64,000 nt of DNA from NCBI GenBank assembly GCA_009917445.1, contig QZEE01000012.1, forward strand, positions 1 to 64,000, given 5' to 3'. This document shows, one piece after another, positions 5,793-63,940 of the stretch. Under the pieces are notes generated by a model. It saw only the letters and a program-made list of their open reading frames with translations, had not been told where the DNA came from and ran no database searches. A program made the translations under genes and the position numbers. Every line of letters starts with the position of its first letter. The stretch's first letter is position 1. Source of the DNA: a bacterium D16-76 (GTDB taxonomy: Bacteria > Bacillota > Clostridia > Oscillospirales > Acutalibacteraceae).

Positions 5793-8318
5793 CTACAGGT
5801 CCCAGTCCGGGCTGGTGTAGCCGGGGTCTGCCAGCTGGGGGTCATCAGCAGGCTTTTGATAAAGGATGCCGTTAAAATATTGGTCGTCCCGCCACTCCCC
5901 ATCAAAAACGATGGCCCCGTTTTTATCAAACTCGGTGCCATGGCCGTGGCGCATGCCGTTTTTCCAGCTGCCATAGTAAAGAAGGTTGCCCTCAGGGTCA
6001 AAGGCGGATGCCAGCCCGGTATTCTGGCCCCCGGCCCACTTGGTAACCATAACCGAGCCGTCGGCGCTGTTGACGCTTACCCCAGCGCCCTCCTTTTTCC
6101 CGTTAACGATTCGCCCGCCAAAGCGCAGGCTGCCTTCCTTGTCAAACAAAGAGACCTGCTGCCCCGGCCGCCCCTGCACCCACCGGGACACATGCAGGGC
6201 ATGGTCGCCTTCCCGGAAGGAGACGCCCAGCCCGTCTTTCTTATCGTCGCGCCAAAAGCCCGCATAGCTTAAGTCGCCGTTTTTATAATAATGGCTGCCA
6301 AAGCCCTGGCGCTTGCCATCCTGATAGTCGCCTTCGTAAGCCGTAAGCCCGCTGGGCTGCTGGGCGCGGCCCTTGCCGGTAAGCCTGCCTGCCCGCATGG
6401 CATCAAGCGGTGCTTGGGGCGCAAGCCTTTGGCCCCCAGGCGCCGTGGGCGGGGGAGAGGGCTGAGGCACAGGGCCCGTGTGCCGGGGTGGCTCCTTCTG
6501 CGCATGACGCTGGGCGCTAGGCCGCTGGACCCGGCCCATCTCCCCAGCCTGCCGCGCAGCCGAAAGGATAGAAGTATCCTCCGCCCCCGAACGGGACGGA
6601 TGCCCGCTGCCATGCCGCGTCCCCGCAGCCGCCTCCATCCCCCCAGCCTGCCGCGCAGCCGAAAGGATAGAAGCATCATCCGCCCCTAAACGGGACGGAT
6701 GCCCGCTGTCATGCCGCGTCCCCGCAGCCGCCTCCATCCCGCCAGCCTGCCGCGCAGCCGAAAGGATAGAAGTATCCTCCGCCCCCAAACGGGACGGATG
6801 ACCGCTGTCATGCCGCGTCCCCGCAGCCGCCTCCATCCCGCCAGCCTGCCGCGCAGCCGAAAGGATAGAAGCATCATCCGCCCCCAAACGGGACGGATGC
6901 CCGCTACCATGCCGCGTCCCCGCAGCCGCCTCCATTCCCCCTGCCTGCCGCGCAGCTGAAAGAATAGAAGCCTCCTCCATACCCAACTGCGGCTGGGCCG
7001 CTTTGTCCATAGCCCGCTTAGGCGGCTCTTCCTCATAGCCCGCATGAGCAGCCGGGGCAGGGGAGTAGGGGGGCTCATAAGCCCCCACCCCATAAGGGTC
7101 AGGCTCCGGCCCCTCTTCACCATAATTTTGAACAGGAGGAATCTCCGAAGAACAAGGCGCAGCCACTTCCTGCGGGACAGGGCTAGGCGGCGCCGCTTCC
7201 TGGGCCGCTTGTTCCATAGCCTCCCGCACAACAGGCAAAATAGGAGAATCCTCCTCCACCTGAACCGGGGGCAAAACCTCCTGCGCCGGGGGCAGGGGAG
7301 GGGCCGGCGCCGCCTCATCCCACACGGCAGGAAGCTCCTCGGCAGGGGCTTCCTGCCGGGCGTCCGCTAAAATAAATTCAATATCCAGCTCGTCTGTTTG
7401 GGCCGGGGGCCCTTCCGGAAGGGGCGGCGCTTCCATAGGCAAGCCTTCCAAGGCAGGCTCAGGCAAATCCCTGGCCGCGGCCTGAATAGTCAAGGGAGGG
7501 GCCGGCTTTTCTTTTTTCTCAATGCGCGCGTACTCCTCCAGGCTGGGGAAGGTGACATCCTCCCCGTCCTCCTCATCGCCGGAAAAGGCCCCCTCCTTGA
7601 TCTCCCAGGCAGGCATAAGCACCATGGTGCCGCCGCGAATCTCCTCCAATGCCTGAACCCTGGCCTGGGCTTCCTGCTGAGGGCAGTAGCAGCAGGGCCC
7701 CGCCTCAGCAGAAACGATGAGGGCAGGCTCGCCAAACCGGGCGTTGACCAATGCCTGTTCCGCAGAGCCCGGCTGATAAGGGGCCGGGTGCAGCATAACC
7801 GAACGGTACAGCTTCTTATCCGGGTCCCAATCGTAGCGGCCCACCACATCCTCCATAGGGTCCGGTTTAAACATGACTTTGGCAGTCCCCGGGTCCCAAG
7901 GCTCGTAATATTCCGACTTCTGCCAGGCGTGGTCCTTGCTGAAAAACGCCCGGCTGACAATCACGCCCTGGAAATCCCGGCTGACCAACACATAGCCGCC
8001 CTTCTGGTCAAAGGCTTCTTCCAGTGCCACACCTTTTTGGCCAGAGACGCCCAAGGCCGTTTTCTTCCAATAAAACCCCCAGCGGGAGAGCTTGCCCCGC
8101 AGGTCGCCGTCAAAGCCCTTTACAGTTTCCCTGCGCCCCACCTTCACAGCCTTGCGCCCCCCCGTGAAAAACCGCTGCCGGGCAGAAGCAAGCTCCCCTT
8201 GGAGCATTTCCAGGCTGTCCCTCTTCGGGAAGCACACACCATATACATCTTGCGAAAGCAGGCTGGCCCCTTCGGCGGGCCTGGGCTCTTTATTAGGCTC
8301 TTTTTTCCCCTTTTCCAT
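5793..8318 (-). CDS. MORN-repeat protein with 33-residue tandem repeats
   Basis: This 841-residue protein has three regions. An N-terminal domain (about 1-230, containing YGVCFPKRDSLEML) is unknown to me. The middle is low-complexity and Pro/Glu/Ala-rich, and includes four complete and one partial copy of a 33-residue unit beginning ASILSAARQAGGMEAA. The C-terminal ~190 residues contain MORN-like repeats (YEGDYQDGKRQGFG, YYGSWKNGMRHGHG, FDGEWRDDQYFNG). MORN repeats commonly form extended beta sheets for protein or membrane contacts. There is no signal peptide or membrane segment, so it is likely cytoplasmic. The ATG at 8318 has an AAGGGGAG site; the frame extends only to a TTG at 8345. A TATAAT-like -10 lies at 8364-8369. 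Confidence 0.8.
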   Translation of the reverse strand: MEKGKKEPNKEPRPAEGASLLSQDVYGVCFPKRDSLEMLQGELASARQRFFTGGRKAVKVGRRETVKGFDGDLRGKLSRWGFYWKKTALGVSGQKGVALEEAFDQKGGYVLVSRDFQGVIVSRAFFSKDHAWQKSEYYEPWDPGTAKVMFKPDPMEDVVGRYDWDPDKKLYRSVMLHPAPYQPGSAEQALVNARFGEPALIVSAEAGPCCYCPQQEAQARVQALEEIRGGTMVLMPAWEIKEGAFSGDEEDGEDVTFPSLEEYARIEKKEKPAPPLTIQAAARDLPEPALEGLPMEAPPLPEGPPAQTDELDIEFILADARQEAPAEELPAVWDEAAPAPPLPPAQEVLPPVQVEEDSPILPVVREAMEQAAQEAAPPSPVPQEVAAPCSSEIPPVQNYGEEGPEPDPYGVGAYEPPYSPAPAAHAGYEEEPPKRAMDKAAQPQLGMEEASILSAARQAGGMEAAAGTRHGSGHPSRLGADDASILSAARQAGGMEAAAGTRHDSGHPSRLGAEDTSILSAARQAGGMEAAAGTRHDSGHPSRLGADDASILSAARQAGGMEAAAGTRHGSGHPSRSGAEDTSILSAARQAGEMGRVQRPSAQRHAQKEPPRHTGPVPQPSPPPTAPGGQRLAPQAPLDAMRAGRLTGKGRAQQPSGLTAYEGDYQDGKRQGFGSHYYKNGDLSYAGFWRDDKKDGLGVSFREGDHALHVSRWVQGRPGQQVSLFDKEGSLRFGGRIVNGKKEGAGVSVNSADGSVMVTKWAGGQNTGLASAFDPEGNLLYYGSWKNGMRHGHGTEFDKNGAIVFDGEWRDDQYFNGILYQKPADDPQLADPGYTSPDWDL
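6540..6981 (-). repeat. 99-bp tandem repeats inside the MORN gene
   Basis: About 4.4 nearly identical 99-bp units, each encoding 33 residues, follow one another. Differences are a handful of substitutions (for example Gly/Asp in HGSGHPS, and the GADDAS versus GAEDTS alternation). High DNA identity points to recent duplication or gene conversion and to likely copy-number variation between strains. Confidence 0.9.
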
Positions 8319-11552: not shown

Positions 11553-12636
11553 GTTGTGCAGGCGGGTTTTTAGGGGGCAGGACGGGGGGCAAAAGCTGGG
11601 CCTCCTTCAAAAACGCATACAGCATGCACAGGCCCATAACGTAAAGCAGCACCCAAAAGCTGCCGCCCACTAAGGAGAAATATACCGCCGCCAGCATAGC
11701 CAAGGGGTGCACCTTAGCCGTAGAAGCCACCAACTTAGGCTCCATGACCTGGCGGATGCAGGTAATGGTCAGCCACCCAATAAATAACCCCGCCGCCTTG
11801 CCGTACTCCCCAATAAGCACCTGGTACACAGCCAGAGGCGTGAAGACAATACCAGGGCCCAGCACAGGCAGCAAGTCCGCCGCCGCCGTAACAAGGCCAA
11901 TAGTGAGAGGGTAGGGGATATGCAGCAGGGAGAGGATAACGCAAGTCTCACAAAAGGTAATAAAATAAAGGAATAAATAAGACAGGAAATACCGCCGCCC
12001 CGTGCCAGCCGTGCTCTCCAGGCCAGCCTTCACTTTCCCCACAGCGCTGTCGCTGAAAAAACGCCGCGCCCAAGCCCGCAGCCGGCCCATATCCCGTGAG
12101 AAGCAGAAAGTGGCAAACCCCGTAGTAAGAGCCAGGGCCAGCAGGGTAGGCAGGGAAGCAGCCAACCCCAAAAGGGCTTTCAAAAAAGAGAGCACCAAAC
12201 CCATGCTGCCCTTAAAAAATTCCAAAATTTCCTCCTGGTTCTGGCGTATGAAGTTCAAATCAAGGCCGTCCAAAAAATTCCCCACCCGGCGGAAGAACGC
12301 CTGTACCGGCGGTGTAAAATCCGGAAAGCCCCCACTAGAAGCCTTTACCAAGAAAGCGGCGGCTTCCCGCACGCCATAGTACCCTATAAGCCCAGCCCCC
12401 GCCGCCACAGCCGCCAGGGCCAGGGCCGCCGCCAAAGCCGAGGCCCCCCCGTGGGTGCAGGGCAGGTGCTTCTCAAAAAAAACGATGACAGGCTGCACAG
12501 CCGCTGCGGCCAGCAGCCCCAGCAGAAAGGGCAGGGAATAAAGGAAGGTCTTGACCCATAAGAAGAAAATAAGGGTATACACAGCGAAAAAGACCAGCAG
12601 GGGCCGCAGCCGCCGCAGCTCACCTTTTTGCAGCAC
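11536..12636 (-). CDS. ytvI: AI-2E family / sporulation membrane protein YtvI-like
   Basis: The 366-residue polytopic membrane protein has hydrophobic segments at both ends and the AI-2E transporter family arrangement: two or three N-terminal helices, an amphipathic middle region, then a C-terminal helix bundle containing PYPLTIGLVTAAADLLPVLG and GPGIVFTPLAVYQ. In spore formers this subfamily is represented by YtvI, a mother-cell sporulation protein of unclear function. The start is GTG 12636 with AAAGGGGGG upstream. The sporulation assignment is inferred from family and host type; other AI-2E homologues are exporters. Confidence 0.75.
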   Translation of the reverse strand: MLQKGELRRLRPLLVFFAVYTLIFFLWVKTFLYSLPFLLGLLAAAAVQPVIVFFEKHLPCTHGGASALAAALALAAVAAGAGLIGYYGVREAAAFLVKASSGGFPDFTPPVQAFFRRVGNFLDGLDLNFIRQNQEEILEFFKGSMGLVLSFLKALLGLAASLPTLLALALTTGFATFCFSRDMGRLRAWARRFFSDSAVGKVKAGLESTAGTGRRYFLSYLFLYFITFCETCVILSLLHIPYPLTIGLVTAAADLLPVLGPGIVFTPLAVYQVLIGEYGKAAGLFIGWLTITCIRQVMEPKLVASTAKVHPLAMLAAVYFSLVGGSFWVLLYVMGLCMLYAFLKEAQLLPPVLPPKNPPAQQSADP

Positions 12637-12704
12637 AGGCCGCGCCCCCCTTTCACCGTAAGCCGTTTTCTTTACTATAAAATAAAGTATGCCCCAGCGC
12701 CATG

Positions 12705-12736
12705 AAAAAATGCCCCCGGGTTCAACCCAGAGGCAT
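12705..12736 (-). terminator. Rho-independent terminator of the XRE gene
   Basis: On the minus strand the stem tgcctctgggtt/aacccgggggca, with an imperfect G-rich middle, is followed by six T residues. Confidence 0.75.
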
Positions 12737-12781
12737 CCTTTACACGTGTTTCGGTTGCTTTGCGGCCTGCCGCCTTTCCGG

Positions 12782-13033
12782 CTATCGTTCCTTGCCGGTA
12801 AGCAGCCAATCGACGGAAACGTTCAAAATGTCGGACAGAGCCAGCAGTTCCACGTCGGTGACAAAGCGCAGCTGCCCTTCCAGCTTAGACAGGCCCGAGG
12901 CGTTCAAATCCACGCCGCGCACCTGCAGCTGGGCCAAAAGCTCCTTCTGCTTCATACCCTGGCTTTTCCGGGCAGACTCTACTCTGGCACCTACCAAGTT
13001 TTTTGAGCCCAAGGGCTGGCTGCGCAATCTCAT
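12782..13033 (-). CDS. XRE-family helix-turn-helix regulator
   Basis: The 83-residue protein consists almost entirely of a Cro/C1-type DNA-binding domain: MKQKELLAQLQ (helix 2), SGLSKLEGQL (recognition helix) and LALSDILNVSVDWLLTG (the usual C-terminal helix). There is no ligand domain. The ATG at 13033 has AGAGGG before it; an in-frame extension to 13075 has no better site. It is divergent from pncB, so autoregulation or control of pncB is possible but unproven. Confidence 0.8.
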   Translation of the reverse strand: MRLRSQPLGSKNLVGARVESARKSQGMKQKELLAQLQVRGVDLNASGLSKLEGQLRFVTDVELLALSDILNVSVDWLLTGKER

Positions 13034-13205
13034 AGCTGTACCCTCTTTCCCAAAAAGTTTCAGTGTCCTACCCATATTATAAGGAAGGGGGGCGGGGAAA
13101 TCAATCTACTTTAAAGAATTATACAGAAAAATTTTGAAATTTACACAGTTTGTTTTCCCATAGGGTTTTATTCTTTCACAAAGGGCATAGACTTGCAAAA
13201 AAGCA

Positions 13206-13234
13206 CTGTACTTTTCGGTAAAAGCTGGTATAAT
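13206..13234 (+). promoter_or_regulatory. Probable pncB promoter
   Basis: A perfect TATAAT -10 lies at 13229-13234, with a weak -35 (CTGTAC) 17 bp upstream. Transcription from here would begin near 13241, which argues for translation from the ATG at 13300 rather than the one at 13240. Confidence 0.6.
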
Positions 13235-13299
13235 AGGTCATGGCGAAAAACTTAACAGAAAACCACGCCTTTAGTGCAGGGAAAGGAAGGCACACCGCC

Positions 13300-14760
13300 A
13301 TGGGAAAGAATTTTACAAGCGATGAACGGAACCTGACCATGCTCACCGATTTTTATGAGCTGACAATGGCAAACGGCTATTTCCAAAACGGCCTGCAGGA
13401 CACCATCTGTTATTTTGACATGTTCTTCCGCAAGGTGCCGGACAACGGCGGCTTTGCCATTATGGCCGGGGTAGAACAGCTGGTGGACTACCTGCGAAAC
13501 CTTGCCTTTTCCCAAGAGGACATCGACTATCTGAAAGGCAAGCATATCTTCTGCAAAGAATTTTTGGAGTACCTGCGGGACTTCAAATTCCAGTGCGACG
13601 TCTGGGCCGTGCCAGAGGGCACGCCTATTTTCCCCGGCGAGCCCATCGTGACAGTCCGGGGCCCAGCTATACAGGCCCAGTTTGTGGAGACCATGGTGCT
13701 TTTATGCATAAACCACCAAAGCCTGGTCGCCACCAAAACCAACCGCATTGTGCGGGCCGCCCAGGGTCGGGCTGTCATGGAGTTCGGCTCCCGCCGGGCC
13801 CAGGGCTTTGACGGCGCGGTATACGGGGCCCGGGCGGCCTTTATCGGCGGGTGCGCGGGCACAGCCTGCACCATCAGCGACCAGATGTTCGGTGTACCGG
13901 CCTTAGGCACCATGGCCCACAGCTGGGTGCAGCTGTTTGACAGCGAGTACGATGCCTTTAAAGCCTATGCCGAGGCTTACCCGCAAAACTGTGTGCTGCT
14001 GGTAGACACCTACAACGTGCTGAAATCCGGCGTACCCAACGCTATCAAAGTGTTTAACGAGGTGCTGGTGCCCCAGGGCTTCCGCCCGGCGGGCATACGC
14101 ATAGACAGCGGCGACATCACCTACCTGTCCCGCAAGGCCCGGAAGCTGCTGGATGACGCAGGGTTTGAAGACTGCGCCATCTGCGCCTCCAACTCCCTGG
14201 ACGAGTATATCATACGGGACATGCTGATCCAGGGGGCAAGGGTAGATTCCTTTGGCGTAGGCGAACGCCTCATTACCTCTTCCTCCGAGCCCGTGTTCGG
14301 CGGGGTGTATAAGCTGGTAGCCGTAGAAAAGCCAGACGGCTCGGTAACGCCAAAAATCAAGATTAGCGAAAACGTGGCAAAGATCACCACCCCCTGTTTC
14401 AAAAACGTCTGGAGGCTTTTTGATAAAGAGACCGACAAAGCGATCGCCGACGTAATCACCCTGCACGACGAGATCATCGACGATACCAAGCCCTACACCA
14501 TCTTTGACCCCAACCATACCTGGAAACGCAAAACCGTGCAGAACTTCTACGCGGTGTCGCTGATGACGCAGATTTTCAAAGGCGGCACGTGCACCTATAC
14601 CCCCCGGGCCCTCAAGGCCATCAAAGCCTACTGCATGGCCCAGGTAGACACGCTGTGGGAGGAAGTGACACGTTTTGAGAACCCCCACACCTATTATGTA
14701 GACCTTTCGCAGCCGCTGTGGGAGGAGAAGAACCGCCTGCTTTCCGCAGAATCCTTTTAA
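13300..14760 (+). CDS. pncB: Nicotinate phosphoribosyltransferase
   Basis: It converts nicotinate plus PRPP to nicotinate mononucleotide (the Preiss-Handler NAD salvage entry), with ATP hydrolysis. The 486-residue length and landmarks match the family: LTDFYELTMANGYF at the N-terminus, EFGSRRAQGFDGAVYGARAA in the barrel, GIRIDSGDITYLSRKAR (phosphate and substrate binding) and FGVGERLITSSSEPVFGGVYKL. The ATG at 13300 is preceded by AAAGGAAGG. It lies 42 bp before rnpB, which may be partly read from the same transcript. Confidence 0.94.
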   Translation: MGKNFTSDERNLTMLTDFYELTMANGYFQNGLQDTICYFDMFFRKVPDNGGFAIMAGVEQLVDYLRNLAFSQEDIDYLKGKHIFCKEFLEYLRDFKFQCDVWAVPEGTPIFPGEPIVTVRGPAIQAQFVETMVLLCINHQSLVATKTNRIVRAAQGRAVMEFGSRRAQGFDGAVYGARAAFIGGCAGTACTISDQMFGVPALGTMAHSWVQLFDSEYDAFKAYAEAYPQNCVLLVDTYNVLKSGVPNAIKVFNEVLVPQGFRPAGIRIDSGDITYLSRKARKLLDDAGFEDCAICASNSLDEYIIRDMLIQGARVDSFGVGERLITSSSEPVFGGVYKLVAVEKPDGSVTPKIKISENVAKITTPCFKNVWRLFDKETDKAIADVITLHDEIIDDTKPYTIFDPNHTWKRKTVQNFYAVSLMTQIFKGGTCTYTPRALKAIKAYCMAQVDTLWEEVTRFENPHTYYVDLSQPLWEEKNRLLSAESF

Positions 14761-14802
14761 AAACGCGGGCAGCAGCGCAAAAACGATGAAGACCTGATTT
14801 GT

Positions 14803-15160
14803 GTGAGCAGGCCGGACAGTTGCGGGCGCTTTGCGAAAGCGGGCGTCTGAGGAAAGTCCGGGCTCCAAAGGGCGAGGATAACGGCTAACGGCCGCCGGGG
14901 GCGACCCCAGGGAAAGTGCAACAGAGATATACCGCCGGGGGCAACCCCGGTAAGGATGGAAAGGCGAGGTAAGAGCTCACCGGCGCGCGGGGAACTGCGC
15001 GGCCCTGTAAACCCTATCCGGAGCAACACCGTGGAAGGACAGCAGTTCAGCCTGCAAGCGCGGCCCGCGTGTCCTGAGGAGGTGGCGTGAGCCTGCCGGC
15101 GACGGCAGGCCAAGATAGATGGCTGTCCGCGACAGAACCCGGCTTACAGGCCTGGTCACA
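14803..15160 (+). ncRNA. rnpB: RNase P RNA, bacterial class A
   Basis: The conserved core is unmistakable: GAGGAAAGTCCGGGCTCC at about 14848-14866 (CR I), the agatagatggctgtcc segment near 15114-15129 and ACAGAACCCGGCTTACAGG at about 15132-15150 (CR IV/V). The ends gtgagcaggcc and ggcctggtcac pair with one mismatch to make helix P1, which sets the approximate boundaries. This is the catalytic RNA that matures tRNA 5' ends. A strong terminator follows at 15178. Confidence 0.96.
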
Positions 15161-15177
15161 TAAAAAGGACTTTATAC

Positions 15178-15214
15178 AAGGGGCGGCATGGCTTATAGGC
15201 CGTGCCGCCCCTTT
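15178..15214 (+). terminator. Rho-independent terminator of rnpB
   Basis: The stem aaggggcggcatggc pairs with gccgtgccgcccctt with minor mismatches and is followed by TTT. Confidence 0.85.
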
Positions 15215-15239
15215 CATCATAGAGCAGCGCCAGAGAAAG

Positions 15240-15404
15240 CGGCGGGAGGGGTCCAGGGGCCCGTGGCCCCTGGCAGGTTCTTAGGACAGCGTCCTAAGTG
15301 GGGTTTGGGGCAAGCCCCAAGGTCTTGCCGCAGGGGGCGCCCTTTGCCCCCGGAGGCTCAAAACGCGTCAGCGGGGTTTGGGGTAAACCCCCAAGGTCTT
15401 CTTA
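15240..15404. repeat. Mosaic of dispersed intergenic repeat modules
   Basis: Several modules are strung together: gtccaggggcccgtggcccctgg, the hairpin cttaggac-agc-gtcctaag (15280-15298), two copies of gcggggtttggggYaa-ccccaaggtctt (about 15299-15328 and 15371-15402), and a gccgcagggggc...gcccccggaggctc unit between them. The same units recur near 34845-34910, 55640-55800 and 62375-62505, sometimes inverted. Confidence 0.75.
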
Positions 15405-15408
15405 AAAT

Positions 15409-15485
15409 CAGAAAAGAGGCAGAAAAGAGGCAGAAAAGAGGCAGAAAAGAGGCAGAAAAGAGGCAGAAAAGAGGCAGAAAAGAGG
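15409..15485 (+). repeat. Seven 11-bp tandem repeats upstream of the MATE start
   Basis: Seven perfect head-to-tail copies of cagaaaagagg end seven bases before the MATE start codon at 15493. Every unit carries an AGAGG core that could pair with the 16S rRNA tail, and the last one is placed as the ribosome binding site. The array is purine-only apart from one C per unit. Confidence 0.95.
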
Positions 15486-15492
15486 AGAAACC

Positions 15493-16836
15493 ATGGCCGC
15501 AGAAGAAAAAGACTTTTCCGTAGGCTCAGTCAAACGGCGCATTATCGCCCAGGCCGTGCCGCTTACGGTGGCCCAGGTGGTGCAGCTGCTATACAACGTA
15601 GTAGACCGCATCTATATCGGCCACCTGGAAAGCATTGGCGACGTAGCCCTAACCGGGCTGGGCATCACCTTCCCGGTAATCGTGCTCATCGCCGCCTTTA
15701 CCAGCCTTTTCGGCAGCGGCGGCACCGCCCTGTTTTCCATTGCCCGGGGCAAACGGGACGAGACCGAAGCCGAGGCCATTTTAGGCAATGTATTCTCTCT
15801 GCTGCTGGCCTCCTCGGCGGTGCTGTTCGGGGTCTGCTACTTTTTGCGCAGGCCCATCCTGTTCCTCTTCGGGGCCAGCGAGCTTTCGGTGTTGTACGCC
15901 GACCAATATTTGCAAATCTACGTCTTTGGCACCGCCTTTTCCATGCTGGCAACCGGACTTAACGGCTACATAAACGCCCAGGGCTTCCCCCGGGTAGGCA
16001 TGCTAACAACCATCCTGGGGGCGGCAGTCAATATCCTTTTAGACCCCCTGTTCATTTTCGCCCTTGATATGGGGGTGCGGGGCGCGGCCCTGGCCACCGT
16101 TATCAGCCAGGGCATCTCCGCCCTGTGGGTGCTGCGGTTCTTAACAGGGAAAAAAGCCCTGCTGCGCATCAAAATAAGCCGCATGCGCCCCACCTGGAAA
16201 CGCGCCAAATCCATTATAGCCATTGGCCTGCCAGGCTTTGTGATGCAGGGCACCAACAGCCTGGTGCAAATCGTCTGCAACAACCAGCTGCAAGCCTACG
16301 GCGGCGACCTGTACGTGGGCATCCTGACCGTGTTAGGCTCCGTGCGGGAAATCCTTTCCCTGCCGGTCATGGGGGTAAGCAACGGGGCCCAGCCGGTCTT
16401 AGGCTATAACTACGGCGCAGGGAAAAACGAACGGGTAAAAGAAGGCATACGCTTCACAGCCGTGTTAGGCTTTGTATACACCATGCTGGCCTGGATCGTG
16501 GTAATGCTGATACCCCGGCAGCTCATAGGCGTCTTTTCCAGCGACCCCCGAACCGTCTCCACTGGCGCGCAGATGCTGGGCCTGTACTTTTTCGGCTTCT
16601 TTTTCATGGCCTTCCAGTTTGTGGGGCAGACCACCTTCCAGGCCTTGGGCAAGGCCAAACAGGCCATCTTTTTCTCCCTTTTCCGCAAGGCGATCATTGT
16701 GGTGCCCCTTACCCTGCTGCTGCCCGCGGCGGGCTTTGGGGTAGAAGGGGTATTCCTGGCCGAGCCTATCTCCAACGCCATAGGCGGGCTTGCCTGCTTC
16801 ATTACCATGTGGGTGATGATCTACCGGAAGCTATAG
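15493..16836 (+). CDS. MATE family efflux transporter
   Basis: The 447-residue protein has about twelve membrane helices arranged as two homologous halves. The N-half contains AQVVQLLYNVVDRIYIGHL and TSLFGSGGTALFSIARG; the C-half contains LSLPVMGVSNGAQPVLGYNYGAG. These are typical of NorM/DinF-like MATE exporters, which extrude cationic compounds in exchange for Na+ or H+. The substrate is unknown. The ATG lies just after the 11-bp repeat array that supplies its ribosome binding site, so expression may change with repeat number. Confidence 0.93.
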   Translation: MAAEEKDFSVGSVKRRIIAQAVPLTVAQVVQLLYNVVDRIYIGHLESIGDVALTGLGITFPVIVLIAAFTSLFGSGGTALFSIARGKRDETEAEAILGNVFSLLLASSAVLFGVCYFLRRPILFLFGASELSVLYADQYLQIYVFGTAFSMLATGLNGYINAQGFPRVGMLTTILGAAVNILLDPLFIFALDMGVRGAALATVISQGISALWVLRFLTGKKALLRIKISRMRPTWKRAKSIIAIGLPGFVMQGTNSLVQIVCNNQLQAYGGDLYVGILTVLGSVREILSLPVMGVSNGAQPVLGYNYGAGKNERVKEGIRFTAVLGFVYTMLAWIVVMLIPRQLIGVFSSDPRTVSTGAQMLGLYFFGFFFMAFQFVGQTTFQALGKAKQAIFFSLFRKAIIVVPLTLLLPAAGFGVEGVFLAEPISNAIGGLACFITMWVMIYRKL

Positions 16837-16880
16837 CCCCCTTTTCCCAAAAGAACCCAAGGCTTTATCTTGAATCCTGG

Positions 16881-17041
16881 AGTCTGTTTTCAAACCGGAG
16901 GGATGCCAGGATTTTTAAATAAAATGGAACGGATTCAAGGAAAAACCCGCAAGAAAGGCTGTGGCCTCTCAAGGATTTTTGACGCAGAAGCCGTCCGTTT
17001 TAGACGTAAAGACGGCGCTTCGGAGTTTTAAAACAGACGCT
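16881..17041 (-). mobile_element. MITE-like dispersed element, copy 1 (reverse orientation)
   Basis: About 160 bp with inverted ends, agtctgttttcaaaccgg at the left and ttttaaaacagacgct at the right. Its reverse complement matches 62572-62735 over nearly the whole length, including gccgtctttacgtctaaaa, ggcttctgcgtcaaaaatcc and ggccacagcctttct. It contains no open reading frame of note but an internal gccgtc/gacggc palindrome. It ends 19 bp before the recQ start codon. Short length, terminal inverted repeats and dispersal suggest a non-autonomous transposable element. Confidence 0.75.
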
Positions 17042-17060
17042 AGACAATAGGGGGATTTTT

Positions 17061-18896
17061 ATGGACAAGCTCACGCTGCTAAAAGTGCTCTTCGGCCACG
17101 ACGGCTTCCGCGAAGGCCAAGAGCCCTTGGTAGACGCCCTCCTTTCCGGCCGGGACGTGCTGGGGGTCATGCCCACTGGCGCCGGCAAGTCGATATGCTA
17201 CCAGCTGCCCGCCATGGGGCTGCCCGGCTTTGCCCTGGTGGTCTCGCCGCTTATTTCTTTAATGAAAGACCAGGTAGCCGCCCTGGTACACAGCGGGGTG
17301 CCCGCGGCGTATATCAATTCCTCCCTCACCCCCGCCCAGCAGCGGGAGGTCCTGCAGCGGGCCGATACGGGGGCATACAAGCTGATCTACGTGGCCCCAG
17401 AACGCCTCATGGCCCCAGATTTCCTGCGGCTGGCCCAAAAAGGCGGCGTCTCCCTGGTGGCAGTCGACGAAGCCCACTGTGTTTCCCAGTGGGGGCAGGA
17501 TTTCCGGCCCAGCTACCTGGACATCGCCCCGTTTTTAGAGAAGCTGCCCCAGCGCCCGGTGGTAGGGGCCTTTACAGCCACAGCCACCGGCCAGGTCCAG
17601 GCAGACATAGAAAAGCTCTTGCTGCTGCAAAACCCCCTGCGGGTGACTACCGGCTACGACAGGCCCAACCTCTATTTTGAGGTGGCCCGCCCCAAAGATA
17701 AAGACGCCTGGCTGCGGCATTTCCTGGCTGGCCGCGAAGGGCAAAGCGGCATTATCTACTGCGCCACCCGCAAGGCCGTAGAAGCCGTGTGCGGCAGCCT
17801 GCAGGAGAGAGGCATCACAGCCACCCGCTACCACGCCGGCCTGGAGGACGAAGAGCGCCGGCAGAACCAGGAAGATTTTGTCTACGACCGCTGCCGGATA
17901 ATGGTAGCCACCAATGCTTTCGGCATGGGCATCGACAAATCCAACGTAGGCTTTGTGGTGCACTACAACATGCCCAAAAACATCGAAAGCTATTACCAAG
18001 AGGCAGGCCGTGCCGGCCGTGACGGCGCGCCGGCACACTGTGCGCTGCTGTTTTCCCCCCGGGACGTGCAAACAGCCAAATTCCTCCTTGCAAACCCCAC
18101 AGAGAACGAAGCCCTTTCCGAAGAAGAGCGCCAAAGCGTGCGGGAAAAGGACTTGCAGCGCCTGTCCCAAATGACCGCCTACTGCAAGACTACCAGCTGC
18201 CTGCGCGGTTTTTTGCTGGGGTATTTTGGGCAGAGGGCCCCCATCCAGTGTAACGGCTGCGGGAACTGCCAGGGGGAAGTGCAAAGCTGGGACATTACCT
18301 TGGAAGCCCAGAAAATCCTTTCAGGCGTAGCCCGGGTAGAGCGCAAATACACCAAAAGCCTGGGTGCGTCGCTGATCGTAGATATGCTGCGGGGCAGCAA
18401 AAGCCAGCGGGTAACCCAGCTGGGCCTAGATACCCTTTCCACCTACGGTGTCATGGCAGACGTCCCCCGGGCCCGTCTGGTGTCTTATGTAGACTTCCTC
18501 ACCCTGGAAGGCTACATAAAACAAGACAGCGGGGAGTACCCCGTGCTCCGTCTAGGCCCCCGGGCCCGTGGGGTGCTGCTTCACGGGGAAAAGGTCGCCT
18601 ACACATGCGTAGGGCAGGCCGAAGCCGACCGCCTGGCCCCCGCCAAGACCGCGGAGGCCAACCGCGAAGAACCAGGCGGCTTGTACGAGGCCCTGCGTTC
18701 CCTGCGCACCCGCCTGGCCGCAGAAGAGAACGTGCCCGCCTATATCATATTTTCCAATACCGCCCTGGCCGACATGGCTGCCAAGCAGCCCACAACCCTG
18801 GAAGAGTTCCGCTTAGTATCCGGCGTAGGGGAGGTAAAAGCCAAAAAATACGGGCAGGCCTTTTTAGAAGGGATCGCCGCCTGGCAAGGGTCATAA
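17061..18896 (+). CDS. recQ: ATP-dependent DNA helicase RecQ
   Basis: This 611-residue 3'-5' superfamily 2 helicase acts in recombination and replication-fork repair. It shows Walker A PTGAGKS (about residues 38-44), DEAH (about 136-139), QWGQDFRP, the motif VI region ESYYQEAGRAGRDG and the RecQ zinc cysteines (CKTTSC with CNGCGNC). A winged-helix RQC region follows, and a C-terminal HRDC-like domain contains RLVSGVGEVKAKKYG. The start ATG follows TAGGGGGATTTTT. The MITE copy at 16881-17041 occupies most of the upstream gap. Confidence 0.96.
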   Translation: MDKLTLLKVLFGHDGFREGQEPLVDALLSGRDVLGVMPTGAGKSICYQLPAMGLPGFALVVSPLISLMKDQVAALVHSGVPAAYINSSLTPAQQREVLQRADTGAYKLIYVAPERLMAPDFLRLAQKGGVSLVAVDEAHCVSQWGQDFRPSYLDIAPFLEKLPQRPVVGAFTATATGQVQADIEKLLLLQNPLRVTTGYDRPNLYFEVARPKDKDAWLRHFLAGREGQSGIIYCATRKAVEAVCGSLQERGITATRYHAGLEDEERRQNQEDFVYDRCRIMVATNAFGMGIDKSNVGFVVHYNMPKNIESYYQEAGRAGRDGAPAHCALLFSPRDVQTAKFLLANPTENEALSEEERQSVREKDLQRLSQMTAYCKTTSCLRGFLLGYFGQRAPIQCNGCGNCQGEVQSWDITLEAQKILSGVARVERKYTKSLGASLIVDMLRGSKSQRVTQLGLDTLSTYGVMADVPRARLVSYVDFLTLEGYIKQDSGEYPVLRLGPRARGVLLHGEKVAYTCVGQAEADRLAPAKTAEANREEPGGLYEALRSLRTRLAAEENVPAYIIFSNTALADMAAKQPTTLEEFRLVSGVGEVKAKKYGQAFLEGIAAWQGS

Positions 18897-19051
18897 GGTT
18901 GGGCCCCGCCCGAACCCGCCAAGGGGCGGTCTCGCCTGCCGGCTCGGTCCGTCGCTGGACGTGCCCCACTGGGGCGCAGCGCCCCCCTGGACACCCACCG
19001 CCCTTCAAAAAGGGCGGCCCTAAACTTCACTTTTTGCGTTGTCGATAAAAG
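18897..19051. other. Gap between recQ and the DUF4097 gene
   Basis: The gap holds GC-rich partial palindromes (for example actggggcgcagcgccccc near 18970) that resemble, but do not exactly match, the dispersed modules found elsewhere. No gene is evident. The first part may act as recQ's terminator region. Confidence 0.4.
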
Positions 19052-19087
19052 AAAAAGGCCAAGGCTTATTTCAGCCCTGGCCTTTGC
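19052..19087 (-). terminator. Terminator of the PadR operon
   Basis: On the minus strand the stem aaaggccagggc/gccttggccttt, with an 8-base loop, is followed by a T-rich run (TTTTTCTTTT). Confidence 0.8.
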
Positions 19088-19106
19088 TATTCTCCAGATT
19101 ACAAGA

Positions 19107-20117
19107 TTAAGCCTCTAAAATTTGGATATTGCCAGAAGTGGTAGAGAAGTGGAACCGCCCAGCAGGACGCCCTGTACCGTAGGTATTTTCACTCTCCTGC
19201 CCTCCTTGGCTGGGGAACCCGCAGGAAAACTGGCCAGAGATCGTATCATGCCCGGCGGTAAAGCAGGCAGAAGAGGGCAGCTCCAAGGTAAGGGAGCCGG
19301 AAACCGAGTCCATGTCAACCTCTTCCGGGCAGGCAGACAAAGCCCCATGGCACAAACCGGAAACGGTTTCGGTGCTGAAAACCTCAGCCTTGCCCCCATA
19401 GTAGATTTCGCCGCTGGTAGTGCTGGCGTTGGCCGACCCAGCCGCCGCGTCCGAAAAATATATACTGCCGCTGGTGCTGCTGGACTCGATAGCCTGGGCC
19501 GTAAGGCCCTCTGAAACAATATCACCGCTGGTGGTGCTTATGGAACAGCTGTCGCTAAAGGTAAGGGGTGCGGCAAGGTGGATGTCCCCCGAGACAGAGG
19601 AAAACTCCCCTTCCTCCGCGGTAAGCCCGCCAACCTCTAGATCGCCGGAAATCGTAGAGCAGTCTACCTCTTCCAGCCCTTGGGCCAAAGCCTGCGGCAG
19701 CTCTAAAGTCAGGGACTTTTCCAGGCCTCCGAAGCCGAACAGGTTGAAGGAAAAAAACCTAAAACGGTTATGGTCCCAGTCAATGGAAAGGGTGCCGCTG
19801 CCAAAGCCTACCCGCATCTGCTCGTTATCTTCCAACAGGCGCGAGCTGGTCTCTGTGATGCGTATTTTCCCCCCAGGCACGACTTTAACCAAAACCGGGC
19901 CCGCCTCCCAGCTGATTTCCAGCTTTTCCAAAGGCTCGTCTTCGGGGTCCAGCTCGACCAGATTGTCAAAGCCGTAAGGCTGGGGCCTATCCCCGTGGGC
20001 CGAAGCCCGCAGCAGGCCAAACCCGTCGCTGTTTAACCCCACCATCAAAATCCCGCCCAGAAAAAGCACGGCAATAGAGCAGGCGATAATCGTAAAGACA
20101 GCTCTTTTCTTACTCAT
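19107..20117 (-). CDS. DUF4097 beta-helix protein, membrane anchored
   Basis: The 336-residue protein has one N-terminal membrane segment (about 7-27) and a repetitive domain of short beta strands. Phrases of the type STTSGDI, STSGSIYF and SVSGDI recur, which is the DUF4097 adhesin-like pattern also seen in LiaG/YvlB. Such proteins are tied to cell-envelope stress operons but their activity is unknown. An ATG with GGAGGG starts 19 bp after the permease-prefix gene. It is the last gene of a PadR-controlled operon, so it is probably induced by the same signal. Confidence 0.85.
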   Translation of the reverse strand: MSKKRAVFTIIACSIAVLFLGGILMVGLNSDGFGLLRASAHGDRPQPYGFDNLVELDPEDEPLEKLEISWEAGPVLVKVVPGGKIRITETSSRLLEDNEQMRVGFGSGTLSIDWDHNRFRFFSFNLFGFGGLEKSLTLELPQALAQGLEEVDCSTISGDLEVGGLTAEEGEFSSVSGDIHLAAPLTFSDSCSISTTSGDIVSEGLTAQAIESSSTSGSIYFSDAAAGSANASTTSGEIYYGGKAEVFSTETVSGLCHGALSACPEEVDMDSVSGSLTLELPSSACFTAGHDTISGQFSCGFPSQGGQESENTYGTGRPAGRFHFSTTSGNIQILEA

Positions 20118-33794: not shown

Positions 33795-34808
33795 ATGGAA
33801 AACAAGAACGACTTTTTATCGAAAATGACCCAGAAAGCCCAAGAAGCCATGCAAAGCGAAACCGCCCAGAAAGCCAAAGAAAAAGCGAAAGAGCTGGCCG
33901 AGGGCGCAGCCCAGAAAGCCCAGGAAGCCATGCAGAGCGAAACCGCCCAGAAAGCCAAAGAAAAAGCGAAAGAGCTGGCCGAGGGCGCAGCCCAGAAAGC
34001 CCAGGAAGCCATGCAGAGCGAAACCGCCCAGAAAGCCAAAGAAAAAGCGAAAGAGCTGGCCGAGGGCGCAGCCCAGAAAGCCCAGGAAGCCATGCAGAGC
34101 GAAACCGCCCAGAAAGCCAAAGCCATGGCCGGCGCCGCCGTGCAGGAGGCCCAGCAGGCCGTAAGCGAAGCCGTAGCCGAAACGGCAGGGCAGGCCCAGC
34201 AGGTGTACGCCGCTGCCCAGGCGGGGGAGGGCTTGGCCGCGGTGAAAAAGGCAAAGTTCAGCAAGAAGACAGTGGTTACCTTTGGCGTGGTGGCCGTGCT
34301 TATTCTTGTATTGCTGGGCATTGCGGGCATAACCTCTGGGGGCGGCTTGACGGTCAAAGACCTGGGGAAAAAGCTGGAGAAAAATACGCCCAATGGTTTT
34401 TTCTGCTGGAATTACACCCAGAAAGAAGGCGACTTTGACCACGGGATGTGCAGCCTGGCCTTTGCCAACTCCCAGACAAACCCCGGCGCAGGGAGCACCT
34501 CCCCCATGTTGGACAGTAGCGTGCGGGTAAATTTTTCCAGGGCAAACGGGAATCTGGCCACCAAGCCCGGGGATAAAGTCGCTTCGATTGGATGCACCAT
34601 CCATTCCAACAGCCTTATGGGTGATTTAGCCACCGTATCCGCTGCCTGCATAAAGACCTTGCAGCCCTCCATAGACGACGCCGGCTGCCTGGGCATGGTC
34701 AGCTCTGCTTTTGCGGCCCAGGGTGCCCCTTATACGGACAACGGCCTGGCCGTCACCTATGAAGTACACGATGGCTTTGTGACTTTGACCATAGCGATAA
34801 AAGATTAG
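33795..34808 (+). CDS. LEA-like helical repeat membrane protein
   Basis: In this 337-residue protein, residues 13-93 are three identical 27-residue units beginning QKAQEAMQSETAQKAKEK, followed by a partial fourth. The pattern of Ala, Lys, Glu and Gln resembles the amphipathic repeats of late-embryogenesis-abundant proteins. One membrane segment (about 158-178) follows a lysine-rich stretch, then a ~150-residue outer domain with four cysteines that I do not recognise. The topology is probably cytoplasmic repeats with an extracytoplasmic C-terminus. The gene has its own promoter and terminator. Function unknown; membrane or protein protection under stress is only a guess. Confidence 0.8.
   Translation: MENKNDFLSKMTQKAQEAMQSETAQKAKEKAKELAEGAAQKAQEAMQSETAQKAKEKAKELAEGAAQKAQEAMQSETAQKAKEKAKELAEGAAQKAQEAMQSETAQKAKAMAGAAVQEAQQAVSEAVAETAGQAQQVYAAAQAGEGLAAVKKAKFSKKTVVTFGVVAVLILVLLGIAGITSGGGLTVKDLGKKLEKNTPNGFFCWNYTQKEGDFDHGMCSLAFANSQTNPGAGSTSPMLDSSVRVNFSRANGNLATKPGDKVASIGCTIHSNSLMGDLATVSAACIKTLQPSIDDAGCLGMVSSAFAAQGAPYTDNGLAVTYEVHDGFVTLTIAIKD
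33831..34121 (+). repeat. 81-bp tandem repeats in the LEA-like gene
   Basis: Three complete copies (33831-34073) and about 48 bp of a fourth are almost identical at the DNA level, differing at only a few third positions in the first copy. This indicates recent expansion and likely length variation. Confidence 0.92.
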
Positions 34809-34839
34809 TGCAATCGTGCTGTTTTTTCGGAGTAGGTTT

Positions 34840-34945
34840 CGGCCTCCGGGGGCAAAGGCCGCCCCCTGCGGCAAGGTCGTCTCCGACGGCTTAGGGCGCT
34901 GCCCTAAGGACCCGCAAGGTGCCTGACGCACCTTGACCGCGAAAT
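34840..34945. repeat. Dispersed modules downstream of the repeat protein gene
   Basis: The segment holds gcctccgggggcaaaggccgccccctgcggc (inverse of the 15328-15360 module), cgtctccgacggc, the hairpin cttagggc-gct-gccctaag (34889-34907) and gcaaggtgcctgacgcaccttg. Confidence 0.65.
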
Positions 34946-40319: not shown

Positions 40320-40361
40320 GACCAAATCTCTCCTTTCTAAACACGAGCACAGCAAAAAGTT

Positions 40362-40429
40362 TTTTGAAGGTTCTTAGGGAACTTTTTTCCAAAAAAGTTC
40401 CCTAAGCGGGGCCAGGGGCAGAGCCCCCA
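40362..40429. repeat. Palindromic module after metG
   Basis: The hairpin cttagggaactttttt/aaaaaagttccctaag (40374-40407), preceded by aaagttttttgaaggtt, is closely related to the one at 45290-45338. It is followed by ggggccaggggcagagccccca. It lies directly after metG and may terminate it. Confidence 0.7.
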
Positions 40430-45284: not shown

Positions 45285-45360
45285 AAAGTTTTTTGAAGAT
45301 TCTTAAGGGGCTTTTTTCCAAAAAAGCCCCTTAAGCCGCCGGAGGCAAAAAAGCGGACAT
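45285..45360. repeat. Palindromic module between paaK and iorA
   Basis: The hairpin cttaaggggctttttt/aaaaaagccccttaag (45303-45336) is followed by ccgccggaggc, and is closely related to the copies at 40362 and 4802. It may attenuate transcription into iorA. Confidence 0.7.
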
Positions 45361-55624: not shown

Positions 55625-55800
55625 AGGAAGCGAAGCGTGGGAGTCCAGAGGGCCCATGGCCCTTTGGTGGGGGACTTGGGGGCGAAGCCCACGAGTGGGG
55701 TTTGGGGCAAGGCCCCGGGGTCTTGCCGCAGGCGCGACCTTTGCGCCGGAGGCTCTAAACAGCGTTAGCGGGGTTTGGGGTGTAACCCCAAGGTCTTGGT
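55625..55800. repeat. Mosaic of dispersed intergenic repeat modules
   Basis: Modules in order: gcgtgggagtccagagggcccatggccctttgg, gtggggtttggggcaaggccccggggtcttg, ccgcaggcgcgacctttgcgccggaggctc and gcggggtttggggtgtaaccccaaggtcttg. The order module B, module C, module B is the same as at 15299-15402. No gene is present. Confidence 0.75.
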
Positions 55801-62374: not shown

Positions 62375-62505
62375 TGGGGTCCAAAGGGATCATCCCCCTG
62401 GCGGGGGCCTTGGGGGCGGAGCCCCTGAGCCGTCGGAGACGGCCTTGCCGAAGGCCATAAAAGCGTTAGCCGGGGTTTGGGGCGCAGCCCCAAGGTCTTG
62501 CCCGG
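62375..62505. repeat. Mosaic of dispersed intergenic repeat modules
   Basis: Modules: ggggtccaaagggatcatccccctgg, gggggccttgggggcggagccc, gccgtcggagacggc and gcgttagccggggtttggggcgcagccccaaggtcttg. They match units at 15250-15402, 34886 and 55640-55798. Confidence 0.7.
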
Positions 62506-62571
62506 GGATAATAAGGGCCCGCCGTGGGACGAGGCGGCTTTGGGGCGTTAGGCGGCTTTAAAGCCAGGCTT

Positions 62572-62735
62572 AGAGCCTGTTTCAAAACTCCGAAACGCCG
62601 TCTTTACGTCTAAAATGGACGGCTTCTGCGTCAAAAATCCTCGAAAGGCCACAGCCTTTCTCGCGTCTCTTTCCTTAAATCCGTTCCATTTTAGACAAAA
62701 GCCCCGGCATTTCTCCGGTTTTAAAACAGACCCTA
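62572..62735 (+). mobile_element. MITE-like dispersed element, copy 2
   Basis: About 164 bp with ends agagcctgtttcaaaactccg and ccggttttaaaacagaccct, nearly the exact reverse complement of the element at 16881-17041. The internal palindrome gccgtc...gacggc and the ggccacagcctttct segment are shared. It has no coding capacity. It lies about 80 bp before the purM promoter, and the frames crossing it are not genes. Confidence 0.75.
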
Positions 62736-62817
62736 GCAACTGGTAAGATGAATAGCCTGCTTTCTGTTGAGACGGGCGTGGGGGCGCGTGGGCGCTATAC
62801 TCTGTGTAGTGTGTCGA

Positions 62818-62899: not shown

Positions 62900-63940
62900 A
62901 TGAAAAGCTACAGCGACAGCTACAAGAGCGCGGGCGTGGACGTGACCGCGGGGTATGAGTCGGTGGAACTGATGAAAAAGCACGTGGCACGCACCAGGAT
63001 ACCCGGGGTGGTCTCGGGGATTGGAGGCTTTGGGGGGCTGTTCGCGCCGCCGGTGGAAGGCATGAAGGAGCCTGTGCTGGTGTCTGGTACCGACGGGGTG
63101 GGGACAAAGCTGAAAATCGCTATGCTGATGGACAAGCACGACACCATTGGCATTGACGCGGTGGCCATGTGCGTCAATGATGTGATCTGCTGCGGGGCAA
63201 AGCCCCTGTTCTTCTTGGATTACATTGCCTGTGGGCGGAATTTCCCGGAGAAGATCGCGCAGATCGTGGCCGGGGTGGCCGAGGGCTGCGTGCAGGCCGG
63301 CTGCGCGCTGATCGGCGGGGAGACGGCCGAGCACCCGGGCATGATGCCGGAGGAGGAGTACGATCTGGCCGGGTTCACGGTAGGGCTGGTGGACCGGGAG
63401 AAAATTGTGGACGGCAGCCGGCTGGAAGCGGGGGACGTGCTGATCGGGGTGCGGTCCTCGGGGGTGCACTCCAATGGGTTTTCGCTGGTGCGCAAGGTGT
63501 TTGGCATAGGGGACAGCCCGGAAGCGGTGGAGAAACCCTACAGCGAGCTGGGGGGCGCCCTGGGTGAAGCGCTGCTGACCCCTACACGCATTTATGTAAA
63601 GCCCCTGCTGGCGGCTATGGAGGCAGCGGACGTAAAGGCGGTGTCCCACATTACCGGGGGCGGTTTTTATGAGAACATACCCCGTATGATGAAAGAGGGG
63701 CTTACCGCTAAAATCGAAAAGGCCGCGGTGCCGAAGCTGCCGGTTTTTGACCTGATTGCCAAAGAAGGGGGCATACCGGAGCGGGATATGTTCAACACCT
63801 TCAACATGGGCGTGGGGCTGTGCGTGGCGGCCTCGAAGGGCACGGCCCAGAAAGCCCTGGACGCTTTGCGGGAGGCAGGCGAACAGGCGGACGTCATAGG
63901 CGAGGTGACGGCTGGGGAAGAGGGGATCGTGCTATGGTAA
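62900..63940 (+). CDS. purM: Phosphoribosylformylglycinamidine cyclo-ligase PurM
   Basis: The 346-residue AIR synthetase closes the imidazole ring in purine synthesis (FGAM plus ATP to AIR). It has VSGTDGVGTKLKIAMLMD, DAVAMCVNDVICCGAKPLFFLDYI, GCALIGGETAEHPGMM and the C-terminal NMGVGLCVAA. An ATG with AAGGAGGC. The stop overlaps the purN start by seven bases; purMN is a common operon pair. Confidence 0.96.
   Translation: MKSYSDSYKSAGVDVTAGYESVELMKKHVARTRIPGVVSGIGGFGGLFAPPVEGMKEPVLVSGTDGVGTKLKIAMLMDKHDTIGIDAVAMCVNDVICCGAKPLFFLDYIACGRNFPEKIAQIVAGVAEGCVQAGCALIGGETAEHPGMMPEEEYDLAGFTVGLVDREKIVDGSRLEAGDVLIGVRSSGVHSNGFSLVRKVFGIGDSPEAVEKPYSELGGALGEALLTPTRIYVKPLLAAMEAADVKAVSHITGGGFYENIPRMMKEGLTAKIEKAAVPKLPVFDLIAKEGGIPERDMFNTFNMGVGLCVAASKGTAQKALDALREAGEQADVIGEVTAGEEGIVLW

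Follow-up and report, generated by a model that had tools for sequence, protein, structure and literature searches.

The window, the whole 64-kb stretch of DNA analysed here, carries two copies of a short palindromic element in opposite orientation. Copy 1 lies between a gene for a MATE-family efflux transporter and recQ, its limits set by the target dinucleotides, and copy 2 lies upstream of purM. The two copies and their neighbours are arranged as follows.

15493–16836 (+): MATE-family efflux transporter gene, upstream neighbour of copy 1 (TIGR00797 matE, 183.6 bits, over cutoff)
16878–16879: left target dinucleotide of copy 1, TG, a mutated TA (TA in most copies)
16880–17040 (+): MITE copy 1, 161 bp
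16880–16895 (+): left terminal inverted repeat (TIR) of copy 1, GAGTCTGTTTTCAAAC
16924–16997 (+): conserved structured core of copy 1 (model R2, 51.9 bits, E 2.9e-13)
17025–17040 (−): right TIR of copy 1, GTTTTAAAACAGACGC as written on the + strand
17041–17042: right target dinucleotide of copy 1, TA
17061–18896 (+): recQ, downstream neighbour of copy 1 (TIGR01389 recQ, 690.6 bits, over cutoff)
62571–62572 and 62734–62735: target dinucleotides of copy 2, TA on both sides
62573–62733 (−): MITE copy 2, 161 bp
62616–62689 (−): conserved structured core of copy 2 (model R2, 51.5 bits, E 3.8e-13)
62900–63499 (+): 5' part of purM, neighbour of copy 2 (TIGR00878 purM, 287.3 bits across the first 200 aa)

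In a repeat search of the 64 kb, the inverted pair at 16877–17042 and 62571–62736 is by far the longest in the window, with 166 nt at 86% complementarity, and both copies measure exactly 161 bp. The reverse-complement pair, the terminal inverted repeats and the internal palindrome described in the first-pass annotation are all borne out: the ends of copy 1 read GAGTCTGTTTTCAAAC and GTTTTAAAACAGACGC, and its whole-element palindrome folds as RNA to −54.7 kcal/mol (z = −3.2 against dinucleotide shuffles). The same annotation saw no transposase nearby, and the open reading frames of 12000–20000, around copy 1, contain none. Up to E = 10, the window holds just two R2 matches, the two element copies.

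The element ends 20 bp before the ATG of recQ and leaves a Shine-Dalgarno-like GGGGG outside. A promoter scan of 16780–17120 finds no sigma-70-like site, so that a supply of a promoter to recQ is rejected and the suggested influence on recQ transcription is unsupported. Eighteen relatives have a match to recQ; the element is missing from all 15 of their recQ loci that were examined, and the insertion before recQ is lineage-specific. The earlier proposal that the copy replaces the usual upstream region of recQ holds as far as the lineage-specific insertion goes; there is no single usual region, since the recQ upstream regions differ among relatives. The copy before recQ is most likely a neutral, tolerated insertion of this lineage.

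Several other features are visible in the window. A bacterial class A RNase P RNA lies at 14804–15162 (+; 256.8 bits), and an array of the 11-bp unit CAGAAAAGAGG at 15409–15496, directly before the start of the MATE gene at 15493. Direct repeats at 6437–7030 (spacing 99) and 33829–34122 (spacing 81) have spacings in multiples of three and are possibly coding repeats. A second interspersed family consists of GC-rich palindromes centred on GGGGTTTGGGGC..GCCCCAAGGTCTTGCC, at 15300–15400, 34837–34896, 55698–55797 and 62423–62507, one of which adjoins MITE copy 2. A 52-nt repeat in two copies that are 87% alike (40356–40407 and 45285–45336) forms a long, terminator-like palindrome (..GGAACTTTTTTCCAAAAAAGTTCC..).

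The family in the own genome

A BLAST search with the window copy finds 21 places in the own assembly (3.78 Mb, 148 contigs). After joining of split pieces these become 17 elements, of which nine are full length, three truncated and five internally deleted, with one deletion joint common to three of the five. The elements are short (161 bp), multi-copy (17) and located at dispersed sites. The guess that two copies in the window imply many genome-wide is thus confirmed by the 17 BLAST-detected elements of the draft genome. The other full-length copies are 82–91% identical to the window copy, the nearest 90–91%, and full-length relatives in other species of the genus show about 71–79% identity. 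Beyond the reach of BLAST, R2 finds cores at C89:6478–6551, C116:91182–91255 and C65:14323–14396, which are further subfamilies in the own genome.

With 2 mismatches allowed, the end pattern is found at 43 sites of the own genome and its reversed control at 9. At four of these places both ends meet as a 26-bp palindrome with nothing in between. Such solo palindromes are seen at L092, L093, L094 and L095 in the own genome and at L086 and L087 in two others (G022 and G009, respectively); among the matches listed, the genus core model R1 has none in G022 and one weak match in G009. In a comparison of ten loci the shared sequence is essentially the palindrome alone, so the sites do not look orthologous, and a conserved terminator is rejected on the same comparison. 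A deletion between two GTTTTAAAAC direct repeats would explain the solo palindromes.

Ends, target site and IS5-family partners

Automatic typing of 109 elements by their ends gives 43 with type I at both ends (the type of the window copy), 57 with type II at both ends and 9 mixed; 85 of the 109 were taken from loci retrieved for this genus, and the remaining 24 from elsewhere, in part again from this genus. TA stands at both ends in 86 of the 109. Within these 86, a Y precedes TA in 81 and an R follows it in 81; the end-search patterns contain TA themselves, not the outer bases. The outer-base combinations are CG (27), CA (20), TG (17), TA (13) and other (9), with left and right independent. 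Comparison of the flanks shows a single isolated identity excess, +0.17 at −2/+2, with no diagonal of the kind expected from a longer duplication. This fits YTAR as the target, probably with duplication of TA, the duplication resting on the flank statistics. A four-base duplication of YTAR is rejected, since the outer bases vary independently and a TA duplication fits better.

The length from TA to TA is exactly 165 bp in 77 of the 109 elements (22/43 for I/I, 49/57 for II/II, 6/9 for mixed ends). Of the nine mixed-end copies, at least three (L275, L292, L405) are from a single other genome and possibly carry a TIR type of their own. In L071, the flanks of a type-I copy match type-II elements, which indicates an insertion into another MITE. 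All eleven complete TIR pairs of the Burkholderiaceae genome G355 span 162 bp; the eight TIR pairs of Janthinobacterium G350 range from 162 bp (in two pairs) to 292 bp. The first-pass annotation had pointed to empty sites as the place to look for target duplications. An element of G017 is absent at the orthologous place in G018, where the flanks also differ by indels; no clean empty site is found for G017 in the comparison with G009, G018 and G022.

In three other species of the genus (G004 L102, G010 L101 and G022 L103), type-I ends spaced 0.7–1.0 kb enclose degraded IS5-family transposases, and three of four type-I IS fragments match NF033580 under its cutoff, at 61 to 107.3 bits. The IS5-family genes of L104 and L109 lie between type-II ends, and the IS of L114 has a related third end, TAGAGTCTGTTCTCACAA. 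In L109 and L114 there are two overlapping open frames each, all four at or above the NF033580 (IS5 transposase) cutoff of 110 bits; the frames of L104 reach 109.4 and 68.7 bits. The two end types of the genus pair with separate IS5 lineages.

The search for a transposase with the same terminal repeats, as the first-pass annotation had proposed, thus succeeds in the genus, with three degraded IS5-family ISs, and yields none in the own assembly. No intact transposase with type-I ends is found, all three type-I ISs being degraded. In the own assembly, neither the TIR-pair search nor the transposase search finds an IS with type-I ends; the latter gives a single IS5-family gene, on contig C72, with no type-I ends near it. 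The window elements therefore appear to be left without a partner, or to rely on an IS that the assembly lacks. Given the degraded type-I ISs and the divergence among the full-length copies of the own genome, activity today is unlikely in this strain. For the Burkholderiaceae, a search for a partner IS that allowed 1 mismatch in the local TIR finds no two copies of it at the distance of a transposase gene, so that the link to IS5 is shown only inside this genus.

The assignment to the MITEs is supported by copy number, terminal repeats, the YTAR target and the same-ended IS5-family ISs of the genus. Bacterial MITEs are commonly described as IS remnants (in the available text of PMC5896051). 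In the ISs with the same ends, no R2 core is found inside (matches up to E = 1), and an origin of the MITE interior as a remnant of the partner IS is rejected on this ground. The one weak R2 match in L101 lies outside the IS, and the core-bearing MITE about 0.25 kb from the IS5 relic L108 has its own two ends and is read as a neighbour, not as the interior of the IS. Like other MITEs of IS5-family elements, the window element has TIRs in common with IS5-family ISs, a YTAR target and no visible coding capacity. It differs from an ordinary IS5 MITE in that it is not an internal deletion of the partner IS, and in its conserved structured core, which occurs also with another end type in the genus and with others elsewhere. 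RUP of Streptococcus pneumoniae, proposed to be moved by IS630-Spn1 (available text of PMC2229807), is alike as a MITE thought to be moved in trans by a same-ended IS and in its TA target; it is unlike in that IS630-Spn1 belongs to another IS family.

The structured core and its spread

The core consists of about 60 nt at the apex of the hairpin, with the layout CAAGG..AAAASCGCA-hairpin-CGAGSATTTT..ACRCAG. In its outer part, the stem leads to CAAGG opposite ACRCAG, followed by AAAASC paired with GSATTTT around one bulged A. In its inner part, GCA stands opposite GA, and a 7-bp stem carries a small loop. The element of L072 folds as one long hairpin (−78.4 kcal/mol, z = −10.7). Two core-bearing elements contain one hairpin more: in L074 (1391–1575) it is a second stem-loop, of 18 bases, and in L120 (1989–2177) a 24-base palindrome.

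The genus alignment A2 (41 sequences) has 92.7% of cells paired and 10 of 20 pairs doubly changed. None of 500 shuffles reaches its paired percentage, double-change cells or covariation score, and 17 of 500 reach its number of pairs with double changes. The broad alignment A4 (39 sequences) has 91.6% of cells paired and 18 of 23 pairs doubly changed; its double-change cells number 191 against 66.6 in shuffles, its covariation score is 0.506 against 0.130, and none of 500 shuffles is as high on any of five measures. Slid structures pair at most 44.4% of cells, a comparison in which the scoring favours the A2 and A4 structures, since these were drawn by hand from the very alignments scored. Of the rows of A4, 23 of 39, like all of A3, were found by pattern and the other 16 by model R1. 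The loop bases CAAG, GCA and GA are invariant or at least 90% conserved in A4, across phyla; positions fixed by the search pattern are conserved by construction in A3 and in 23 A4 rows, and this pattern placed no constraint on the stems, on CAAG or on whether the two free S positions pair.

In 119 distinct cores, which include close relatives, so that the counts are not independent events, the S–S pair is GC in 61, CG in 56 and other in 2 (one AT, one mismatch). Beside the A-rich helix, 60 of these cores have C.A, 51 have A.G and 8 another combination, and this position is a coupled non-Watson-Crick pair.

A comparison with Rfam assigns the core to no family: in the window only the RNase P RNA reaches its gathering score, with nothing at the element, and across 20 loci, 90.5 kb in all, the sole families to do so are a T-box and an L10 leader, neither at a core. 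Hairpin models far under their gathering scores match the palindrome (MIR2646 with 37 of the 245 bits needed, E 9.5e-6, and others), and these matches are taken as chance. The T-box leader of L244 (1202–1424) stands about 70 bp before a core-bearing element.

R1, the model of the genus core, matches at least 15 of 29 genomes of the genus, with at least 125 matches in one genome, and at least 105 of 300 sampled genomes of the family, from at least 62 of 135 genera. In a phylum-wide draw of 398 genomes, 16 have an R2 match, the own genome among them; the E-values of the models are rough. A pattern scan of named genomes returns at least 118 stretches, against a chance expectation, estimated by hand, of less than 0.1 matches in the collection. 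Among the matches listed (80), the carriers are Oscillospiraceae-type gut bacteria, isolates of Diaphorobacter caeni and Ideonella paludis, a Janthinobacterium MAG, and MAGs of Saprospiraceae, Lewinella and Chitinophagales. On the Burkholderiaceae side, R2 counts at least 28 copies in Diaphorobacter, at least 9 in Ideonella, at least 7 in Janthinobacterium and at least 39 in another Burkholderiaceae MAG. On the Bacteroidota side it counts at least 35 and at least 68 in Saprospiraceae, at least 5 in Lewinella and at least 84 in Chitinophagales. Of the 17 genomes so counted, 16 were chosen by pattern match and one (G316) by R1 match, and only the copy numbers are informative. Where the flanks extend far enough for the ends to be read (for example in L316, L318, L333, L298 and L319), the core sits inside palindromes with other ends, several of which begin YTAG. 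A structured, portable MITE core that is not in Rfam spans phyla.

Correia and ERIC elements look alike in the order of their motifs, a likeness that suggested ERIC as the same family. Correia is a MITE of about 107–155 bp with TA at its termini, and ERIC a palindromic element of 127 bp with TA ends (both in the available text of PMC2229807). The motif order of Correia, CAAGGCGA..GCCGCAG..hairpin..GGCGAGG.CAACGC, is like that of the core; its ends are TATAGTGGATTAA, in place of TAGAGTCTGTTTT here, and its inner helix is shortened. On 16 Neisseria viral contigs (135 kb), R2, with no training row known from Neisseria, has five matches at an E of 10 or less, every one of them on a Correia element. 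The scores are weak (12.1–18.5 bits, E 0.013 to 1.2), and two of the five are identical in sequence. The contigs were chosen for carrying Correia elements, so the result tests position, not presence. Of 17 Correia places found by pattern, three of them cut by a contig end, R2 misses 12, mostly of the form of about 155 bp. On the Neisseria viral contig L382, only the ends of a Correia element are left, apparently because the stretch between two direct CAAGGCGA repeats was deleted, in parallel to the solo palindromes of the present family.

ERIC is like the window element in being palindromic with TA ends. It is rejected as a member of the same family, R2 having no match in 55 kb around the one E. 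coli ERIC tested; with filters off, R2 reaches at most 5.5 bits at this element, off its centre. The available text of PMC2229807 and of PMC10969869 mentions no core common to Correia and ERIC. Searches of the open-access literature list no title or abstract that joins Correia or other MITEs by a shared core, and a prior description is possible.

Readings of the core

The element is best read, with a probability of about 0.7, as a MITE of two exchangeable modules, IS5-family ends and a portable structured core that most likely acts in the spread of the element. The basis of this reading is directly observed: ends in common with IS5, a target preference, a conserved structure, and differing ends on one core. 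The ends module is the IS5-family terminal repeats, which would be bound in trans by the transposase of that family; this would move the element to YTAR and duplicate TA. The core module is the roughly 60 nt at the apex of the long hairpin, with two near-fixed internal loops and covarying stems; it does not derive from the IS, and it would persist for very long periods as its ends are replaced. As every end re-creates the YTAR target, elements may insert into or beside one another, and an exchange of ends may follow from such nesting, with mispaired ends or recombination between nested elements giving mixed-end copies. The core most likely serves the spread of the element as folded DNA: as a cruciform or single strand, it may join the ends of the element of about 161 bp or recruit a host factor.

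The main alternative, that the core works as RNA, is less likely on the present evidence. The core would then be co-transcribed, bind a protein or RNase, protect or process the mRNA, and be kept by the hosts. Its internal loops and coupled non-canonical pair do resemble RNA structure, and transcripts of Correia and ERIC are reportedly cleaved by RNase III and RNase E (available text of PMC10969869 and PMC2229807). The genomic setting is also compatible with such a role. With genes called by a simple codon-usage gene caller in three genomes, 0 of 52 copies lie inside called genes (24 copies from G004, 18 from G027 and 10 from G000, with two copies each in loci L436, L437, L443 and L445), and 50 of the 51 copies with both neighbours called lie 3' of at least one neighbour. 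These 51 comprise 37 between co-directional genes (core sense 21, antisense 16), 13 between convergent genes and 1 between divergent genes; for at most 1 of 14 being divergent, the one-sided binomial probability is about 0.001 by hand, if convergent and divergent gaps are equally available. However, avoidance of divergent regions is also expected if insertions into promoters are harmful. The near balance of sense and antisense means that many copies would be transcribed as the complement, and with no clear preference for one orientation, a strand-specific function as RNA is disfavoured at most sites. Nor is the element conserved at recQ between species.

An improbable rival of the two-module reading is an ordinary MITE, formed by internal deletion of one IS5-family element, with a junk interior whose symmetry is due to template switching. 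The whole element is palindromic, and in a palindrome template switching copies arm onto arm and mimics compensatory change; the internally deleted copies and the 26-bp end-to-end palindromes show that deletions happen. Template switching would not, however, conserve the unpaired CAAG, GCA and GA across phyla or couple C.A with A.G, and the core is not found inside same-ended ISs. The interior does have the conserved, covarying structure (A2, A4) that the first-pass annotation had weighed against a MITE, without the syntenic position it had coupled to this, as judged at the recQ loci. A conserved cis-regulatory RNA, a riboswitch-like leader of recQ or other genes, can be dismissed, for although a covarying core stands close upstream of recQ, there is no synteny at the 15 recQ loci, one genome alone has well over a hundred matches, and no Rfam family reaches its gathering score on the element; a conserved leader of recQ in particular is rejected on the synteny.

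Beyond the two-module reading, a wider proposal is tentative, at somewhat less than even odds: a bacteria-wide mobile superfamily, defined by the portable folded core of about 60 nt as a functional DNA or RNA device, with Correia as one branch. The core would survive phylum-scale distances by acquiring the ends of whichever IS5-type or other TA-targeting transposases are available. Such a core would be to bacteria what the conserved heads of SINEs are to eukaryotes, rather than IS debris.

In conclusion, the element is confirmed as a MITE, and what is new here is its portable covarying core, which, like its spread across phyla, is absent from the first-pass annotation. That one covarying core is found with varied ends in gut Clostridia, in Burkholderiaceae and in Bacteroidota, and by weak matches in Correia, implies that something inside the element is selected. 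Whether bacterial MITEs do anything for themselves becomes testable through mutation of the core. The core model is a search tool for many unannotated repeats, often at contig ends in draft gut genomes, and the family offers a natural system for how non-autonomous elements change their transposase.
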